From Akkermansiaceae bacterium (GTDB taxonomy: Bacteria; Verrucomicrobiota; Verrucomicrobiia; Verrucomicrobiales; Akkermansiaceae), in contig CAIRGO010000229.1 in NCBI GenBank assembly GCA_903878115.1, forward strand, positions 1-64,000: 64,000 nucleotides of DNA, read 5' to 3'. Below the pieces are notes generated by a model. The model saw only the letters and a list, made by a program, of their open reading frames with translations, ran no database searches and was not told the DNA's origin. This document shows, piece by piece, positions 7,827 through 63,602 of this stretch. The first letter of the stretch is position 1; every line of letters begins with the position of its first letter. The translations under genes and the position numbers were made by a program.

Positions 7827-8693
7827 CTACATCCCCACCGGATGCCAAGTCGTCTTGCTCTCGGTGAAATCACGGATCTGATACAGGCCTTGCGCGCTGT
7901 CGGCAAACCAATCGATGATATTTTCAGTGTTATGAAACTTCACTCGTTTCACATGTTCTGCCGCGCCTTGTTGTAAGATAATCCGCTCCGCTTTTGTCGC
8001 CACGGCAGCGATGCCGCGCAAATGCGCATGGGTGGAAAATGTGGGGATCATTTCACTGCGCTGACCAGTAAGAATATTCACCACCCCGCCTGGCAGGTCG
8101 CTAGTGGCCAGCATTTCCCCTAACAAAATCGCCGGATAAGGATGCACGCTCGATGCCGCTGCCACCACCGCATTGCCACTGCAAATGATCGGCAATACCA
8201 GAGAAATCAATCCAAGCAGCGGGCATTCATCGGGCGCGATCACGCCAATCACTCCCATCGCTTCGATCACGGTGAAATTAAAATGCGCCGAGGCCACAGG
8301 ATTCACACTACCTAATAGTGCCTGGTATTTATCGGTCCAGCCCGCGTAGTGAACGATGCGTTCGATGCTCGCCGCCACTTCTTTTTCCGCCTGTTTTTTG
8401 TTCGTGCCATCCAGTGCAATTGCCGCGACCATCTCCGCGCTGCGTGCTTCTAACATTTCTGCAAGACGATAAAGAATTTGCCCACGATTGTAGCCGCTGC
8501 GTTTCGCCCACTCCGCTCCTGCTTTCGCAGCCGCCTCCACAGCATTCCGCAAATCCTTACGTGTGCAGAGCGGCATGTTCGCAAAAAAATTGCCCTCCCC
8601 ATCATGCCAAGCACTCACTCGCCCACTCTCGGAGCGAATAAAAGCGCCACCCACATAACATTTCGGAGTCTTCGTGATAGGCAGTCGTGACAT
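7827..8693 (-). CDS. short aldehyde dehydrogenase-family protein lacking catalytic domain
   Basis: 288 aa; ALDH N-terminal/cofactor fold (IEAMGVIGVIAPDECPLLGLISLVLPIICSGNAVV, LPGGVVNILTG) but no catalytic-Cys segment. Confidence 0.75.
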   Translation of the reverse strand: MSRLPITKTPKCYVGGAFIRSESGRVSAWHDGEGNFFANMPLCTRKDLRNAVEAAAKAGAEWAKRSGYNRGQILYRLAEMLEARSAEMVAAIALDGTNKKQAEKEVAASIERIVHYAGWTDKYQALLGSVNPVASAHFNFTVIEAMGVIGVIAPDECPLLGLISLVLPIICSGNAVVAAASSVHPYPAILLGEMLATSDLPGGVVNILTGQRSEMIPTFSTHAHLRGIAAVATKAERIILQQGAAEHVKRVKFHNTENIIDWFADSAQGLYQIRDFTESKTTWHPVGM

Positions 8694-9590: not shown

Positions 9591-10643
9591 TCACCACGGC
9601 CTCTCCTGTTCGACATAAGCCGGCTCGTGACGGGCGTCGTCATAGTAGCGGTGGAAAACCGGGCAGGCGGAGCCGGACATCGGCGGCACCAACCACGACC
9701 AGTCGCCGGGAACCTTGCGGCCGCATTGTTCCTCTCTAGCCACATGCTGCATGAACTGAGCGGAGGCGGTGTGGTGATCGACGATGGCCACTCCCGCTTT
9801 TTGAAAGGAATGCAGCACGGCGCTGTTGATCTCCACCAGGGCGCGGTCCTTCCATAGGATGCTGCGCTTAGAACGATCAATCCCCATCCGCTCGGCGATG
9901 ATAGGCAGTAGATGGTAGCGACCCTCATCGCCGAAGTTGCGCGAGGCGATCTCAGTGCCCATGTAATGACCGCTGAAAGGCGCGGCGGTGAAACGGTGAC
10001 CGCCTCCCACCAGCGCCCGGTCAGAGACGGCGGGCACAGCATGCCATTTCAGTCCCAAGTCAGCAAACCAACTGAACTCGGGGTGCGATATCGGCACTTC
10101 CAGCACCGCGTGCCTAGGCAGTTCGAACCAGCGCGGCTTGTGGCCGGGGAAATCCACCACCAGAGGCAGCACGTCAAAGGCAGAGCGGTCGCGCGGTGGC
10201 TGCCAGCCCATCTCCATCACCCGTGCCGTGAACGCGACCTGATCCGGATCTCCGAGGACGCTGCCGTCCGCCGCGCGGTAACCAGCATAGCGGATGAGCT
10301 GAGTGTTCCAGAGGCGGATGCCTTTTTCTTCGGGATTTGCTGAGGCGAAAACCGTGACTACCGGCCGGATGCGACCGCCATTGGACGCGTATTCAAGGTG
10401 CGTCACGCAGGTCTCAAACACTTCGTCCGGGCTGTCGGCGGTGCGCGCATCGATTAGATGCAGGTTTTCCCAAAACAAGCGGCCGATGCAGCGCGCGTTG
10501 TTCCGCCAGGCCAGCCGGGCCATGCGTTCGAGTGCCTCCATCGTCAAAGCACCCTCCCCATCCCCAAGGCGTGGCGGTACAATGGCGGTGGACGCCGGAT
10601 CCGGAGGCATGAGAGGTGAATGAGGAGCCGGTGGCATTGTCAT
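9591..10643 (-). CDS. nos: nitric oxide synthase oxygenase domain protein
   Basis: Heme-thiolate motif WRNNARCIGRLFW, AAPFSGHYMGTEIASRN (substrate Glu), LWKDRALVEINSAVLHSFQKAGVAIVDHHTASAQFM, GDWSWLVPPMSGSACPVFHRYY; ORF extends to GTG at 10664. Confidence 0.95.
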   Translation of the reverse strand: MTMPPAPHSPLMPPDPASTAIVPPRLGDGEGALTMEALERMARLAWRNNARCIGRLFWENLHLIDARTADSPDEVFETCVTHLEYASNGGRIRPVVTVFASANPEEKGIRLWNTQLIRYAGYRAADGSVLGDPDQVAFTARVMEMGWQPPRDRSAFDVLPLVVDFPGHKPRWFELPRHAVLEVPISHPEFSWFADLGLKWHAVPAVSDRALVGGGHRFTAAPFSGHYMGTEIASRNFGDEGRYHLLPIIAERMGIDRSKRSILWKDRALVEINSAVLHSFQKAGVAIVDHHTASAQFMQHVAREEQCGRKVPGDWSWLVPPMSGSACPVFHRYYDDARHEPAYVEQERPW

Positions 10644-11239
10644 AAATGAAGGGCTGAACAGCACGCTAAGGTATAGGTATTACGCGGCGCTGTCGATGCA
10701 CACGCGGAACTGATGCTGATGTCGTTGTAGGGTAAAGCCCGCTGTAGCAGGGTAACTTCCGTGCTGGTAGCGTAGGTCGCTGAAGTCACAGCCGCTTGAT
10801 AATGAAAATACTCAATCTCAGGATCGATCCTCGCGTTGTAGGCACAGAAGATTTCCCGAGTAACTTTTTCTAATGATGTTCTTACTTTCACCGTCTTCGT
10901 TTACGTTTCAGTTCATATATTAAAGTCCCGCGTCGAGAGCATGCAGCACTGCCGTCGCCTGTCTGTGCATCAAGAATGCTGCTGGTGATGGCTTATTTTT
11001 TGTCGCTTCTCCAATGACGCTTGTCTGTTCCTTGGCGCATGAGTTGAGTTCTCGGAGGGTTGTTATTCTTAGTTTCTGGGTGTTCATAAAAAAGTTGGTT
11101 TCATTGAGGGGACTGAATAAAATGAGGCAAGAATCCCTCGGCCAAGACGACGAGGGAGGCGCAGAAGGAGCGGATGAATTTCATAACTTAGTGAGCAGCG
11201 ATTGGAAGTAGGCGAAAGATGGCTGCAACTGGTCGGTCG

Positions 11240-11468
11240 CTTCACCTGCGTCGCAACAATCTGTGCATCGCGACTGCGGAAATTAGGTTGATGGCCGCCG
11301 GCTCTGGCACCCTATTAGGTTCATTGTCGGAAGCTTTCGTCCCTTCGCTGTCAGTGAGGTGAGCTTGGAGAACTCGTCAAGTTCAGAGCCGGGTGTTTGA
11401 GCCGCTGCAGGCATGACGAAAAACAATGAGGCCAGAAGGGAGAAACACATCAGAACCCTTTTGGCCAT
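11240..11468 (-). pseudogene. PEP-CTERM protein remnant (signal peptide and sorting signal in different frames)
   Basis: MAKRVLMCFSLLASLFFVMPAAAQTPGSEL signal peptide at 11468; shifted frame reads ...DNEPNRVPEPAAINLISAVAMHRLLRRR-stop. Confidence 0.7.
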
Positions 11469-11617
11469 GACCGCCGACTTCTCCGCGCGGGCACCCATTT
11501 CCGGCATTTGTGTAGCCTGATTCAGACAACTGTGCACCTTGGTAAAACCAAGGTCCGGACGATCGCTGGAGGCGGAAATTAATAGAGCGTTGCACATACC
11601 TAGCAATCATGCACACA

Positions 11618-11683
11618 TCGCGGAAATCCGCATCGGGGTTTCTCCCTGAAAATGAGTAAGGGCGACCCTCACGGACGTGCGCC
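11618..11683 (-). promoter_or_regulatory. conserved double-dyad element, copy C1
   Basis: CGCATCGGGGTTTCTCCCTGAAAATGAGTAAGGGCGACCCTCACGGACGTGCG shared with C2 and C3; upstream of the PEP-CTERM remnant. Confidence 0.65.
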
Positions 11684-11721
11684 AAAATCCATGGACTAGC
11701 GTGGAACGATACTGTTTCGAA

Positions 11722-11805
11722 AGAGTTGAAGCCACCAAGCAGGTCAGATTCTGATCCCCCCCCCAGGGTCTCTGGAATTTTATCCTGCTTGGTGACTTCA
11801 ACTCT
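11722..11805. repeat. 22-bp inverted repeat (1 mismatch) with 40-nt spacer
   Basis: AGAGTTGAAGCCACCAAGCAGG ... CCTGCTTGGTGACTTCAACTCT; spacer contains TCAGATTCTGA and a C9 tract. Confidence 0.8.
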
Positions 11806-11925
11806 CCTAAATTTTTCTCGTCTGTCTTCCTCACAGCTGCGGGAAAAATACCGCCGCTTCATGAAACGCCACTGGAGAATGACATTCGTGAAACGTTGTT
11901 GTGAGGTGCGCAGTTTACTATGCAC

Positions 11926-11996
11926 TAATTCTAAGTATCGCGCATCGGGGTTTCACCTTGAAAATGAGTAAGGGTTACCCTTATGAGTGTGCGGCG
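11926..11996 (-). promoter_or_regulatory. conserved double-dyad element, copy C2
   Basis: CTAATTCTAAGTATCGCGCATCGGGGTTTCACCTTGAAAATGAGTAAGGGTTACCCTTATGAGTGTGCGGCG, directly after the response regulator stop. Confidence 0.65.
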
Positions 11997-12001
11997 TTTT
12001 C

Positions 12002-12688
12002 TCACCTCTTTTGTCCGGGCTCGGCAGGTCCCTCATTTTCCAGACGACCAGATTCCACCCAAAGTGTCGCAGCACGCAACAGCGCGGGCGCATGCGCGAG
12101 GAAGAGTTTGTCCTTCAAATGCTCACGATAAGTCTCGACGGTCTTGGGGCTGAGCTTGAGATACTTACCGATCTCTATCGTGCTCAGGCCACCACCTAGC
12201 AATTGGAATACTTGCAGTTCGCGGTCGGTCAGTTTTGCCAGATCAAGCGTTCGGGAAGCGGGGTCAGGAAAAATATTCTGTAGGAGCCTGACCGACATGC
12301 GGGGACTGAGGTGGATCCCCCCTCTCAGCACGGTCTCGATGGCAGTGAGCACGGCTTCGGTGGCCTCGGACTTCATCAGGTAGCCGCGGGCACCAGCCTT
12401 CAGGGAGCGGTGGGCATAGGTGTCTTCGTCAAACTGCGACAGGGCGATGATCCGGATTTGCGGATGCTCTCGTATCACCTCCGTAATCAGTTCGAGTCCC
12501 TCGCCATCGCCTAGGCGCAGGTCCATGAGAATCACATCGTGCGGCGTTTCCGCCATCACCTTCCGGGCTTCACGCACCGATCCAGCCTCGCCGCAACAGG
12601 TCACTCCTTCCTGTTGGTTGAGCCACTGGGCGAGGCCGCTGCGAAAGAAGGGGTGGTCTTCGACAATTAGAACGCGGATTTTTTTCAT
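12002..12688 (-). CDS. NarL/FixJ-family response regulator (intact copy)
   Basis: IRVLIVEDHPFFRSGL, VILMDLRLGDGEG receiver; LTDRELQVFQLLGGGLSTIEIGKYLKLSPKTVETYREHLKDKL LuxR-type HTH. Confidence 0.93.
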   Translation of the reverse strand: MKKIRVLIVEDHPFFRSGLAQWLNQQEGVTCCGEAGSVREARKVMAETPHDVILMDLRLGDGEGLELITEVIREHPQIRIIALSQFDEDTYAHRSLKAGARGYLMKSEATEAVLTAIETVLRGGIHLSPRMSVRLLQNIFPDPASRTLDLAKLTDRELQVFQLLGGGLSTIEIGKYLKLSPKTVETYREHLKDKLFLAHAPALLRAATLWVESGRLENEGPAEPGQKR

Positions 12689-12859: not shown

Positions 12860-13624
12860 TCAAAGAAACTTTGGCAGAAAATAGGAGGTGATGGCGATAA
12901 CCGCACTCACGATCCCGATACTCAGAAGCCGTGGGATGAAATTATGATAATCCTGGCCCTTACATCCCTTCAAGACGAAAGAACTGATGAACAGTGAGAC
13001 CAACACGATGATCAAGGCGGACATATTGAACGGAAGATCCCCATGAAGCATTTTTTGTTTTCCGAACAGCATGGCCAACTGGAAACTGTAGTAGAGCTGC
13101 AGGGCGATCAGGAAGGTTAACCATGGTCCGAAGAATACCCATAGGTCCCTGAGCGTGTTGACAGACCAAGGGCTTTTGAAATTAATCTCCTCCTGCGTGA
13201 TTTGTGCCTTGGTCTTACCAGCGATGGCAATCGTTTCACGGCGGGTGCCGGCGCCCCCCTCAATCGAGGGGCTGAACGACGCCCTAGGCCGCATCATGGA
13301 TGCGGCCCGGAGCCTGACGTATTCCTGCCGGAACTCTGCGGAGTCGCGTTCTAGTGAAAGCAGCTTGTGGACCAGAAGTTCGTCCAGGGAGCCGCTTTCA
13401 AGCTCTTGGATGGCACGTCGGATCGCATGCGGAGGGGCCTCCAACGGAAGGACATGAACAGAGCTCTCATTTGCGGGAGAAGCGATCTTAATGGGTGTGT
13501 CTCGCGACAGCAGGAAATCATCGATAGATTGCAGGGGCTGATCGAATACGTCTTGTTCTACGTCTTGCCTAGGTTTTTCTGGAGAATAGGCTGCTTTTTT
13601 TTGGCTTATAGGATCTTCGCTCAT
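12860..13624 (-). CDS. hypothetical membrane protein
   Basis: ~254-aa ORF with C-terminal TM segments (WVFFGPWLTFLIALQLYYSF, ALIIVLVSLFISSFV, IVSAVIAITSYFL). Confidence 0.7.
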   Translation of the reverse strand: MSEDPISQKKAAYSPEKPRQDVEQDVFDQPLQSIDDFLLSRDTPIKIASPANESSVHVLPLEAPPHAIRRAIQELESGSLDELLVHKLLSLERDSAEFRQEYVRLRAASMMRPRASFSPSIEGGAGTRRETIAIAGKTKAQITQEEINFKSPWSVNTLRDLWVFFGPWLTFLIALQLYYSFQLAMLFGKQKMLHGDLPFNMSALIIVLVSLFISSFVLKGCKGQDYHNFIPRLLSIGIVSAVIAITSYFLPKFL

Positions 13625-13640
13625 CAAACTTTAGGTGCAT

Positions 13641-13669: not shown

Positions 13670-13689
13670 AATTTAAAAAAAATTTCCCA

Positions 13690-13760
13690 TATACCAATTC
13701 TAAGTATCGCGCATCGGGGTTTCACCTTGAAAACGAGTAAGGGTTACCCTTATGAGTGTG
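13690..13760 (-). promoter_or_regulatory. conserved double-dyad element, copy C3
   Basis: Near-identical to C2; lies just upstream of the TTGACA-N17-TACGAT promoter. Confidence 0.65.
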
Positions 13761-13770
13761 CGGCGCATTC

Positions 13771-14097
13771 TCACCTCTTATGTCGGGGCTCGGCAGGTCC
13801 CTCAGTTTCCAGACAACCAGATTCCACCCATAGCGTTGCAGCACGCAACAGCGCGGGCGTATGCGCGAGGGCGAGTTTGTCCTTCAAATGCTCACGATAA
13901 GTCTCGACGGCCTTGTGGCCAAGACTGAGATGTTTACCGATCTCCATGCTGCTGAGAGCACGAATACCTTCCTAACTTCGCACAACCATCCTGCCTCGAC
14001 TGAACAGAACAGCCCTGCCTGTAGGTTGATCCCACTGGGCAAGGCTGCTGCGAAAGAAAGTGTGGTGTTCGTTGATTAGAACGCGGATTTTTTTCAT
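13771..14097 (-). pseudogene. response regulator copy with ~360-bp internal deletion
   Basis: Starts MKKIRVLINEHHTFFRSSLAQW and ends VETYREHLKDKLALAHTPALLRAATLWVESG...EPRHKR-stop; phosphoacceptor region missing. Confidence 0.88.
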
Positions 14098-16733
14098 GGG
14101 GCAGATTTTAGGTTTCCTTTAGCAGTGACGGCAGCACGAAGAGGCAACTGGCAGATGACGGAGGTGCAGTCGGCGGAGTCGGATTGCATGGTGAGGGTGC
14201 CGCCGATATTGACGGCCCGATGGCGCATGATACGCAGGCCCATGCCACCAGCGCGCTCTGGAGCCGGACTCCAGGGTTTGCCGTCGTTAGAGATTCTCAG
14301 GATCAAGCTATTCGGCTCGTAGCGGACCGAAATACTAACAAGCCGGGCATTGCCATGCTGGATGGCGTTGCGCGTGGCTTCTTGGGCGATGCGGTAAAGT
14401 TGCATGCTTTGCTCAGGAGTGAGCGGAGGAAGCGCTGGCGCCACCTCTACCCGGCACACAATGCGGAAGGCGCTTTCCATTTCCTTGCCAAGCTGAGATA
14501 ATCCAGCTGCGAGTCCGCCGGCTTCCAGATCCACCGGGGCGAGCAGGCGGGCGAAATTCCGGACTAGATCAATGCCGTCATTGACCAGCCCGACCAGTTG
14601 CTGAGCGGTGGCCGCCTCAGGTATGGCGCGGCGTTCCAAAGTCTCCGCCAGCGACTTGAAACGGAAAGCAATACCGGCCAAATACGCGCCCAGATGATCG
14701 TGCAATTCATGGGCGATGCGCTCCTGCTCGTGGGAACTGATGCGCGCCACCTCCTGCTCCAGTTGCATGCGTTCGGAAACGTCCCGCATGGCGGCAGCAA
14801 GCCACGTACCGTCTTCCGTTTGCACCGGGCTGAGGCTCATTTCCAGAGGAAATTCCGAGCCATCCTTGCGCCGGCCCGGAAGGCTGGGTTTCTCACCCGC
14901 CTCGGGAAAACGGCCGTTCTTCACGAAGCTTCCGACCTGAAGCGCGGACGGCAGCAGAACTTCCAGTGATTGTCCCCGCAGCTCCGCAGGGGTCCAGCCA
15001 AACATTCGCTCTGCCTGATGGTTGGCCATTTGAATGATTCCCTCTGGATCCGTCATCACCAACGCGTCCGGCGCAAACTCAAACAAGTCCTGAAACTGCC
15101 GCCTGGAATGCTCGAGCTCCGCGGTACGCTCTGCGACCCGCCGCTCCAAGGTGGCGGAGTGCTCTTGAAGCGCCTCTAGGCGCTCGCGCTCTAAGCGAAT
15201 ATTCTGCTCCAATGCAGCCGCCAACTCGCCTGCCCTGACCTCCAGAACCAAATTCAATGCTTCGATCCGGTGTTGGTCGGCTTCTTTCTGCTTCGCGAAC
15301 TGGAAGCCCCGAATGATGGTGGCGTAGGTGGAGAGGAGCGGCTCAATTTCCTCGACCAAGGTCAGATCGTAGCCGCCCGGTCGATTAGACACGCCAACCA
15401 TGGCGATCATTTCCCCGCCCTGTTTGATGGGCACACCGAGGAAAGAGTTCATCGGGGGATGGCCAGGGGGCAGTCCACCCCGTCGGGGGTCCATAGCGGG
15501 CGAATTGGAGATCACCGTCTCGCCTGTGACAAGGACAGCTCCGAATAGGGTCTTGAGGTTGCGGAACTCCAAGCCCGTCGCCTTGTGTTTCTCATAAAAA
15601 GCCGACATCTCCTCGTTCCAAGAGATGTTGGTGATCGCGTGGGTCTTGAGGTAGGGCTGACCCTGCTCATCGCGGAGCACCTCTGCCACAAAGCCGTATT
15701 CACTGCCCGTGAATTTCAGCAGGAGCTGGAGCAGATCTTCAAAAGTCTCCGCTGCGTCGATCTTGCCTCTGCTGATATAACTGGATTGCAACCTCCCCAC
15801 CTCGCGAAGCAAATCACTGGCATGAGCGAGTTTGGACTCGGACTCCTTCAGCACGGAAACATCGCGGATGAACGCACTGAACTGCGTCTGCCCCGCCACC
15901 ATGACCTTGGCTATCGTCAACTCAACCGGAAACTCCGCCCCGTCGTGACGCAGGGCGCTCAGCTCAATTCGGCGGTTCAGCACCCTCGCCTCGCCCGTCT
16001 GGATCAAGTGCCGATGGCCGCGTTCGTGCGCCTCGCGGTAAGACGGAGGAATGATCACTTCCGACATTTTCCGGCCAATGACTTCGCCAGCATTCCAACC
16101 GAAAATCACTTCCGCTTGAGGATTCCAACTGGTAATGAGCCCGTCCAGATCCATGGTGACCACGGCATCCAGTGCCGAGTCGATGATCTGCTCGGTGCGC
16201 TCGTTGCTCTCACGCAACGCAGTTCTGCTCTGCGCTAAGTTGGCACGATCAATGCGGTACTCCAACTTCCGCATGAGCTGGCGCGCCAGCCGTGAGAGAC
16301 CGTCGCGCTGCTCGCTGGTAAGTATGCGCGGCACGCGGTCGATGACACAGAGCGTTCCAATGCGATGGCCGTCGGGGGTAATGAGCGGAGCCCCTGCGTA
16401 GAAGCGGATGTGCGGTTCTCCAGTGACCAGCGGGTTGGCGCAAAAGCGTTCATCTAGGCGAGCATCGGGAATTTCCATCAACTCCTCTCCCTGGATGGCA
16501 TGCTGGCAGAACGAGAGGTTCCGGTGGGTCTCACAAACCTCGAGGCCCACCCGGCTCTTGAACCACAGCCGCGCTCCATCCACCAGCGAAATGAGAGCGA
16601 TGGGTGTCTGGCAAATCAGTGAGGCGAGTTGCGTGAAGTCGTCGAATTCCGGTTCCGGCGGCGTGTCGAGGATGTCGCAGCGCTTGAGCGCTACGAGGCG
16701 ATTCCGCTCGTTGATGGATTCGGGTTCTTTCAC
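14094..16733 (-). CDS. GAF/PAS multi-sensor histidine kinase (HisKA_3-type)
   Basis: N-terminal GAF, two PAS segments (ALDAVVTMDLDGLITSWNPQAEVIFGW; APDALVMTDPEGIIQMANHQAERMFGW), HEQERIAHELHDHLG H-box, C-terminal ATPase GGMGLRIMRHRAVNIGG; GTG start. Confidence 0.92.
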   Translation of the reverse strand: MKEPESINERNRLVALKRCDILDTPPEPEFDDFTQLASLICQTPIALISLVDGARLWFKSRVGLEVCETHRNLSFCQHAIQGEELMEIPDARLDERFCANPLVTGEPHIRFYAGAPLITPDGHRIGTLCVIDRVPRILTSEQRDGLSRLARQLMRKLEYRIDRANLAQSRTALRESNERTEQIIDSALDAVVTMDLDGLITSWNPQAEVIFGWNAGEVIGRKMSEVIIPPSYREAHERGHRHLIQTGEARVLNRRIELSALRHDGAEFPVELTIAKVMVAGQTQFSAFIRDVSVLKESESKLAHASDLLREVGRLQSSYISRGKIDAAETFEDLLQLLLKFTGSEYGFVAEVLRDEQGQPYLKTHAITNISWNEEMSAFYEKHKATGLEFRNLKTLFGAVLVTGETVISNSPAMDPRRGGLPPGHPPMNSFLGVPIKQGGEMIAMVGVSNRPGGYDLTLVEEIEPLLSTYATIIRGFQFAKQKEADQHRIEALNLVLEVRAGELAAALEQNIRLERERLEALQEHSATLERRVAERTAELEHSRRQFQDLFEFAPDALVMTDPEGIIQMANHQAERMFGWTPAELRGQSLEVLLPSALQVGSFVKNGRFPEAGEKPSLPGRRKDGSEFPLEMSLSPVQTEDGTWLAAAMRDVSERMQLEQEVARISSHEQERIAHELHDHLGAYLAGIAFRFKSLAETLERRAIPEAATAQQLVGLVNDGIDLVRNFARLLAPVDLEAGGLAAGLSQLGKEMESAFRIVCRVEVAPALPPLTPEQSMQLYRIAQEATRNAIQHGNARLVSISVRYEPNSLILRISNDGKPWSPAPERAGGMGLRIMRHRAVNIGGTLTMQSDSADCTSVICQLPLRAAVTAKGNLKSAP

Positions 16734-61847: not shown

Positions 61848-63602
61848 ATGCTTCCTGCCCACGCTCCATTCACTGAATCCACTCGCTCTCTCGTCAACGC
61901 CGCCCTTGTTGGCTTGGATGCAACTCAACGCGCATGGCTGTCCGGTTTTCTTGCCACGCCCGCAACTGAATTACCGCAAAAGCCTGCCACGAATGTAAAG
62001 GCGTTGATGTTATATGGCACGGAGTCTGGGAATTCAGAGAAACTAGCTGATCGCGCGGCAAAGGAAGCGAAGAAAAAGGGGATCTCTGCTACAGTGAAAA
62101 ACATGGCCGACCTATCACCATCCGATTTGAAAAAACATGCCAATGTATTGGTATTCGTCAGTACGTGGGGCGATGGCGAACCACCTGATGGGGCGACGAA
62201 ATTTTATAAGGAGTTCATGGCTCTCGAGGAAAAACTCACGAATGTAAATTTTTCCGTTTGCGCTTTGGGAGATACTTCTTACGAAAAATTCTGCCAAATT
62301 GGCAAAGACTTTGATGCCAAGCTCGAAGCATTAGACGCCAAACGATTGGTGCCACGTCAAGATTGCGATGTCGATTATGAAGACGCGTTCACCTCTTGGT
62401 TGACGGCGACGCTAGGCACGTTGGCTCCCGCGACAGTTGCGGTAGAAGCACCCGTTGTCGCTGTGGCTGTGGAAAGTTCCTATGGACTGAAAAATCCTTT
62501 TCCAGCAGAAGTCTTGGAAAATATCTTACTCAACGGCAAAGGCACCGCCAAAGAGACCATCCACGTTGAGCTATCTCTGGCTGGGTCAGGTCTGTCGTAT
62601 GAGCCAGGCGATGCACTAGCAGTGATTCCTTCCAATGCCGATGACGTAGTCGCGGCGCTGCTTAAAGCGGCGAAGCTGAAGGGCGATGAGGCCATTGAAA
62701 CTAAAGCTTCTGGGAAAAAATCACTGATCGAGGCGCTCACCGCAGATCTCGACATCACGGGACTTTCTCGTTCGGTGCTGACAAAACTTCAGGAGGCTAG
62801 TCCACACCCGAAATTAGCGGCATTGCTCGATGAAAATGCCAAGGAGCAACTCAAAGAATACAACTACGGCCGGGAAATCATTGACGCCATAAGCGATTTT
62901 GCACCCGATGGACTAGCGGCGCAGAGTCTCGCTAGTCTATTTCGCAAATTGCCACCGCGGCTTTATTCGATTGCCTCTAGCCCGCTAGCACATCCTGATG
63001 AAGTTCACCTAACGGTTGCCGCCGTCCGCTATCAAAGCCATGGCCGCGAGCGCAAAGGAGTAGCATCGACATTCCTTGCGGATCAGGGACATCCCGGTCA
63101 GTCTGTTAAAGTTTACACACACGCCAACAAAAACTTCCGCCTCCCAGCCAGCGGTGATACTCCTATCATCATGGTCGGGCCGGGAACTGGTGTGGCGCCA
63201 TTCCGCGCCTTTGTTGAGCATCGCGCAGAATTAGGCAATACCGGGAAAAACTGGTTATTCTTCGGTGATCAGCATTACATGTTCGATTTCCTCTATCAAC
63301 TTGAGTGGCAGGAGCATTTGAAAAACGGCACGCTTTCTCGTCTCGACGTTGCCTTTTCGCGCGACCAACCTGAGAAAATCTATGTGCAGCAGCGCATTGC
63401 TGAAAAGGGCAAAGACCTCTACGCTTGGCTGCAACAAGGCGCACATTTCTACGTCTGCGGCGATGCCTCGCGCATGGCCCATGATGTTCACGAAGCACTT
63501 ACGCAAATCTACATCACCCATGGCAAACTTACCCGCGAAGCAGCGGAAGCTGAACTAGAAGCCCTGAAAAAAGCAAAACGCTACCAGCGAGATGTTTATT
63601 GA
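61848..63602 (+). CDS. cysJ: sulfite reductase flavoprotein subunit (diflavin reductase)
   Basis: Flavodoxin YGTESGNSEKLADRAAKEAKK, RLYSIASSPLAHPDEVHLTV, GPGTGVAPFRAFVEHRAELG. Confidence 0.93.
   Translation: MLPAHAPFTESTRSLVNAALVGLDATQRAWLSGFLATPATELPQKPATNVKALMLYGTESGNSEKLADRAAKEAKKKGISATVKNMADLSPSDLKKHANVLVFVSTWGDGEPPDGATKFYKEFMALEEKLTNVNFSVCALGDTSYEKFCQIGKDFDAKLEALDAKRLVPRQDCDVDYEDAFTSWLTATLGTLAPATVAVEAPVVAVAVESSYGLKNPFPAEVLENILLNGKGTAKETIHVELSLAGSGLSYEPGDALAVIPSNADDVVAALLKAAKLKGDEAIETKASGKKSLIEALTADLDITGLSRSVLTKLQEASPHPKLAALLDENAKEQLKEYNYGREIIDAISDFAPDGLAAQSLASLFRKLPPRLYSIASSPLAHPDEVHLTVAAVRYQSHGRERKGVASTFLADQGHPGQSVKVYTHANKNFRLPASGDTPIIMVGPGTGVAPFRAFVEHRAELGNTGKNWLFFGDQHYMFDFLYQLEWQEHLKNGTLSRLDVAFSRDQPEKIYVQQRIAEKGKDLYAWLQQGAHFYVCGDASRMAHDVHEALTQIYITHGKLTREAAEAELEALKKAKRYQRDVY

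Follow-up and report, generated by a model that had tools for sequence, protein, structure and literature searches.

The locus described here raises the question of what a bacterial nitric oxide synthase (NOS) without a reductase domain may do in a verrucomicrobial genome, how it came to be there and which genes would control it. The window, by which the whole analysed stretch of 64,000 nucleotides is meant, belongs to a Verrucomicrobiales metagenome-assembled genome (MAG), and nearly all the genomes compared with it appear to be MAGs or unnamed assemblies.

The gene lies on the reverse strand, within an open reading frame at 9591-10664 that is translated into 357 amino acids with zero internal stops. 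This frame matches the Pfam profile NO_synthase (PF02898) from position 46 to 361 of 362, with E=1.6e-139 and 465 bits (cut-off 22.7), and its best relatives of solved structure are the NOS proteins of Geobacillus (2flq) and Bacillus subtilis, with E values of about 1e-110 to 1e-104. The full-length match and these structural relatives bear out the identification as NOS oxygenase that had been made in an earlier note on this DNA, and every motif quoted there is present. NO_synthase is the single Pfam domain of the frame; neither a reductase nor a globin is fused to it, and the absence of a fused or adjoining reductase is as the note had claimed. An AlphaFold2 model built with 13 sequences reached a pLDDT of 75.8, with low confidence in the region 313-336, and matches NOS oxygenase structures with E of about 1e-33. 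The gene drawn in the note stands, but the start does not, and the strand had been omitted: TTATGACNATGCC is kept in close relatives, and for this reason the ATG at 10643 is the likely start and the GTG at 10664 the less likely one. Initiation at 10643 results in a protein of 350 amino acids (9591..10643, reverse strand), which is also the length of the orthologues. It is the only NOS gene of the 4.4-Mb assembly.

All the heme, arginine and pterin residues tested are retained in this protein. Counting from the ATG at 10643, the heme-thiolate ligand in WRNNARCIGR is Cys52 (codon 10488..10490, reverse strand) and the substrate-binding glutamate in YMGTEI is Glu231 (codon 9951..9953, same strand). 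Both are invariant in an alignment of 13 sequences (A4), as are Trp46, Arg235, Asn236, Trp315, Trp317 and Phe330, and these eight residues are the known NOS contacts with heme, arginine and pterin. The loss of catalytic residues, which the earlier note had named as an argument against its own reading, is therefore not seen. Loss of the heme cysteine in other NOS clades was considered and discarded, this residue being present wherever it was checked. Judging from its residues, the enzyme should be active, and it is in itself an ordinary one of the known type I kind. It shares with the type I enzymes of B. subtilis, G. stearothermophilus and S. aureus the stand-alone oxygenase domain without reductase, the heme cysteine, the substrate glutamate, the pterin Trp/Arg/Phe set and the asparagine of bNOS type (Asn236), at about 50% identity. 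On the other hand, the gate residue is Val206, in a mammalian-like "PAV", where B. subtilis has isoleucine, and the FNGW segment near the substrate reads FSGH; in the main verrucomicrobial NOS group H, Y or F comes after FSG in this segment. A further difference is that in the window a two-component system is linked to the gene.

Regarding the electron donor, other stand-alone bacterial NOS enzymes receive their electrons from general donors, and by analogy the likely source here would be the general redox proteins of the cell and not a reductase dedicated to NOS. The sole diflavin candidate pointed out previously, a CysJ-like protein encoded at 61848..63602 (forward strand), does carry the only Flavodoxin_1 domain of the whole 4.4-Mb assembly. 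Its role as a dedicated donor for NOS is possible but unlikely, because Flavodoxin_1 proteins of similar length are also present in NOS-negative members of the genus and no Flavodoxin_1 match was obtained in the NOS-positive genomes G050 and G056. For a type I bacterial NOS it is the usual case to come without a reductase, and according to a review most bNOS proteins are devoid of reductase domains (PMC9500659).

The linked two-component system, overlooked in the earlier note, is encoded on the same strand as NOS. The response regulator (12002..12688, reverse strand) is of the NarL/VraR/DevR type, with the receiver plus GerE helix-turn-helix that define the NarL family by Pfam and PDB comparison, and it is 73-88% identical in relatives. 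The histidine kinase (14094..16733, reverse strand) has 879 amino acids arranged as GAF-PAS-GAF-PAS-HisKA_3-HATPase, its orthologues adjoin NOS in relatives, and no transmembrane domain was identified in it. Kinase, regulator and NOS are linked in 10 of the 14 rows of one NOS clade (support 99), namely the window, L018, G231, G056, G006, G002, G004, G060, G068 and G155, where G002, whose contig ends, was counted on its regulator. In the other four (L021, L022, L023 and G161, some of them short contigs) the pair is not near NOS. The linkage spans genomes of two families and shows two gene orders, kinase-regulator-NOS and, in genus g9, NOS-kinase-regulator. Most NOS genes of the host family are found without such a pair beside them. 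Conversely, the pair occurs without adjoining NOS: G009 carries kinase, regulator, a 255-aa frame, a second regulator and the motif described below on one contig and NOS on another, and G007, where a NOS gene was not found, shows regulator, motif and an amidohydrolase gene. The pair is thus able to exist independently of NOS, and its control over NOS would have to be inferred from the conserved linkage.

Between the two genes of the pair there are two further features. A degraded second regulator copy (13683..14191, reverse strand), recognised by the repeats D1, D2 and D3, shares 77% identity with the intact regulator over residues 167-228 of the latter and has its own motif copy at 13710-13752. 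Next to it, a 255-aa frame with hydrophobic C-terminal stretches (12860..13627, reverse strand) is 49% identical to L221 13550-14296, and no known domain was found in it with Pfam and NCBIfam. Both features mirror the arrangement of G009, which retains two intact regulator copies. In two genomes, one of them G009, a member of the 255-aa family (window, L221 13550-14296 and L088 4720-5367) is placed between two copies of the response regulator, and in a third, G082, a member is located about 2.6 kb away from NOS.

The first PAS domain of the kinase (PAS1, 15834..16241, reverse strand) resembles heme sensors. In phmmer searches it matches FixL (1d06, E=3e-16) and DosP (1v9y, E=6e-11), and His236 (codon 16026-16028) aligns with the heme histidine in the F-alpha helix of FixL and is invariant in all the orthologues covering that position. 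It should be considered that many non-heme PAS domains resemble FixL. The proximal heme histidine of FixL is His194 in Sinorhizobium meliloti (PMC10765370). At the column aligned with the distal arginine of FixL, which is close to the bound O2, there is an isoleucine in PAS1, Arg254/255 being placed just before, and the kinase reaches 109 bits with the NCBIfam FixL equivalog model, whose cut-off is 850. For these two reasons the kinase is described as a heme-PAS-like sensor and not as FixL. The AlphaFold2 model of PAS1 was unusable (pLDDT 53). As in FixL/FixJ and DosP, whose heme domains PAS1 matches with the proximal histidine aligned, the partner is a regulator of LuxR/NarL type; the window kinase differs from them in its additional GAF domains, second PAS and HisKA_3 core. 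PAS1 may be a heme-binding gas sensor, as predicted from its sequence.

The interval of 1.3 kb between regulator and NOS contains a repeated motif, AAGGGTnACCCTTACTCATTTTCAGGGnnAAACCCCGATGCG. The first copy (11941..11983, reverse strand) consists of the palindrome AAGGGTAACCCTTA plus CTCATTTTCAAGGTGAAACCCCGATGCG and directly follows the stop of the response regulator, and the second, GAGGGTCGCCCTTACTCATTTTCAGGGAGAAACCCCGATGCG (11629..11670, reverse strand), is a candidate operator. A third copy is the one behind the degraded regulator. A stricter form of the pattern has three matches in the window's own genome, all at the NOS locus; a looser form finds further copies elsewhere in a few genomes, and consequently a strictly NOS-specific motif is unsupported. 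In the listed genomes the reversed pattern, used as control, gave 3 matches against 20 for the real one. The motif is not a coding tail, since its nucleotides are conserved at loci that differ in reading frame. In the window it is placed about 1 kb away from the start of NOS, and copies adjoin the regulator genes in G009 and G007. The TACTCAT within it presumably corresponds, although weakly, to the NarL heptamer TACYYMT. Several other neighbours of the motif were observed. In the window's own genome (G000:C281, L216 2516-3214) a copy with 1 mismatch precedes a PEP-CTERM protein gene by about 85 nt, and at about 11100-11500 of the window a frameshifted PEP-CTERM-like remnant apparently lies between motif and NOS. 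The motif also precedes an amidohydrolase gene in L018 (11121-13157) and L222 (521-2539), 89% identical between the two genomes; this gene comes after NOS in L018 and after the regulator in the NOS-less G007.

The same interval contains an inverted repeat that would fold into a hairpin of 24 bp whose loop carries a G tract (11720..11807, reverse strand; z=-7.5). Across five genomes 98.3% of the cells are paired and 5 pairs show double changes, which, with five sequences, is modest evidence of covariation. The hairpin is single-copy in its own genome apart from one chance-level match, and no Rfam family matched it at the gathering thresholds.

The presence of NOS had been considered unusual for a verrucomicrobial host. 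This is not the case: the survey of related genomes that had been proposed in the earlier note shows the gene in 73 of the 244 genomes of the host family (30%), in 7 of 16 genera and always as a single copy, as well as in 15 of the 57 relatives examined, so that it is neither unusual nor ubiquitous. Other matches come from Actinomycetota and Chloroflexota, and plasmid-borne copies are found in haloarchaea, Nostoc, Deinococcus, Rhodococcus and alphaproteobacteria, among others; on the alphaproteobacterial plasmids L150 and L151, NOS overlaps an upstream radical-SAM gene. With the patterns used, none was found in viral contigs, and a search of the open-access literature returned no paper discussing verrucomicrobial NOS. 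In L077, L096, L098, L109, L114, L030 and L031 the gene adjoins housekeeping genes, either pheS or a class II aminoacyl-tRNA synthetase and an aspartokinase-type amino acid kinase that flank it, and this variety of neighbours implies many insertion places. Beside NOS in the window, the frame at 7827-8693 covers positions 3-233 of the 461 of an aldehyde dehydrogenase profile (about half) and is likely a truncated gene. The public label Akkermansia muciniphila of L017 and L018 looks unreliable; the content of L017 matches G056, which belongs to a family other than that of the window.

The horizontal origin proposed in the earlier note holds when tested by composition, identity contrasts, tree conflict and the binning of two contigs. 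GlnD from the window was taken as species marker, since RpoB was not recovered in G000 (the window's own genome) and G006. The GlnD tree needs the minimum of changes for genus labels, whereas the NOS tree conflicts with it and scatters the genera (4 changes for g1, 11 for g13, 4 for g9 and 5 for g7), and AU tests on the NOS tree reject a single clade for genus g1 (p=8e-6), for genus g13 (5e-86) and for the family (4e-5). With respect to the window, NOS is 90% and GlnD 63% identical in G231, from another genus, and the values are 86% and 47% in G056, from another family; within the same genus they are 84% and 79% in G006 but 52% and 73% in G001. Mis-binning does not explain the contrast in G231 and G056, whose contigs carry flank genes of their own lineage (best other matches G219, 96%, and G036, 63%). 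The GC3 of NOS (0.72), kinase (0.70) and regulator (0.66) is above that of 15 other window genes (0.39-0.57) and of the 255-aa frame (0.61), and in G231 and G056 the same genes match those high-GC hosts. Recent acquisition from another phylum was discarded, as the closest NOS relatives of the window are all verrucomicrobial; the transfer that can be traced is accordingly within Verrucomicrobiales. Vertical descent within the host clade, accompanied by numerous losses, would agree with the wide occurrence of the gene (30% of the family genomes) and with the single large group that most verrucomicrobial NOS form in the tree. It is nonetheless extremely improbable in view of the rejected monophyly of genera and family, the identity and GC3 contrasts, and the one copy per genome, which disfavours the sorting of deep paralogues. 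A ubiquitous and vertically inherited gene, the other argument that the earlier note had named against its own reading, is therefore not what is observed. NOS is a gene repeatedly moved between species of this verrucomicrobial family, as far as trees and composition indicate, and the simplest reading is that NOS, kinase and regulator were acquired together from a high-GC verrucomicrobial donor, the identity of which is itself deduced.

Taking these data together, we consider it reasonably probable that the window encodes a competent type I NOS that was horizontally acquired with its histidine kinase and regulator, and that this sensing pair controls it through the motif. The enzyme, from its fold and residues, would oxidise L-arginine to citrulline and NO. 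From linkage and conservation, the cytosolic kinase would sense O2, NO or the redox state by means of its FixL/DosP-like PAS and phosphorylate the regulator, which in turn would act on NOS through the repeated motif of the regulator-NOS interval. A less likely explanation, although one to be taken seriously, is that NOS acts as in Bacillus and Staphylococcus, where low NO protects against oxidative stress and tunes respiration, and that the kinase-regulator pair is a co-travelling neighbour regulating amidohydrolase and PEP-CTERM genes. The pair lacking NOS beside it in G009, the amidohydrolase gene behind regulator and motif in G007, the motif copy ahead of a PEP-CTERM gene in the window's own genome and the many family NOS genes without the pair all agree with it, and so do the published roles of bNOS in stress and respiration (PMC9500659, PMC5539425). 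It accounts poorly, however, for a pair linked to NOS in two gene orders and two families, and for a hairpin conserved between regulator and NOS in five genomes. Rather unlikely is an extended form of the preferred reading, in which NOS, the heme-PAS two-component sensor and the RNA/DNA hairpin form a mobile cassette working as an O2/NO feedback circuit that includes PEP-CTERM genes via the motifs.

A biosynthetic role was also weighed. TxtD supplies NO for nitration in the thaxtomin pathway, and NOS from the window could similarly provide NO for nitration or nitrosation of a specialised metabolite. Natural products discovered by NOS guidance are known (PMC10831120, PMC7109123), and the NOS of such pathways (TxtD, RufN, PtnF) belongs to the same enzyme family and is likewise part of a linked gene set. 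In genus g16 (L082, L087, L092, L094, L097, L108 and L111) NOS is followed at near-constant distances by methyltransferase-like, FAD-oxidoreductase-like and type III PKS genes, a conserved run that is possibly an NO-using biosynthetic cluster. In contrast, biosynthetic partner genes were not found in the window, and there was no P450, PKS or NRPS among the neighbours scanned here and in the other members of this NOS clade, which makes this role very unlikely here.

The enzyme is of a known kind, and the mobile NOS-sensor module appears to be new. As a candidate for a bacterial NOS under dedicated transcriptional control, the locus is concrete and can be tested, and it raises the question whether a NOS-linked, heme-PAS-like kinase senses the substrate O2 or the product NO. 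If the wider cassette circuit were true, it would set both endogenous NO and PEP-CTERM surface-protein genes in Verrucomicrobia. Bacterial NOS is, in any case, common and horizontally mobile in this environmentally abundant phylum.
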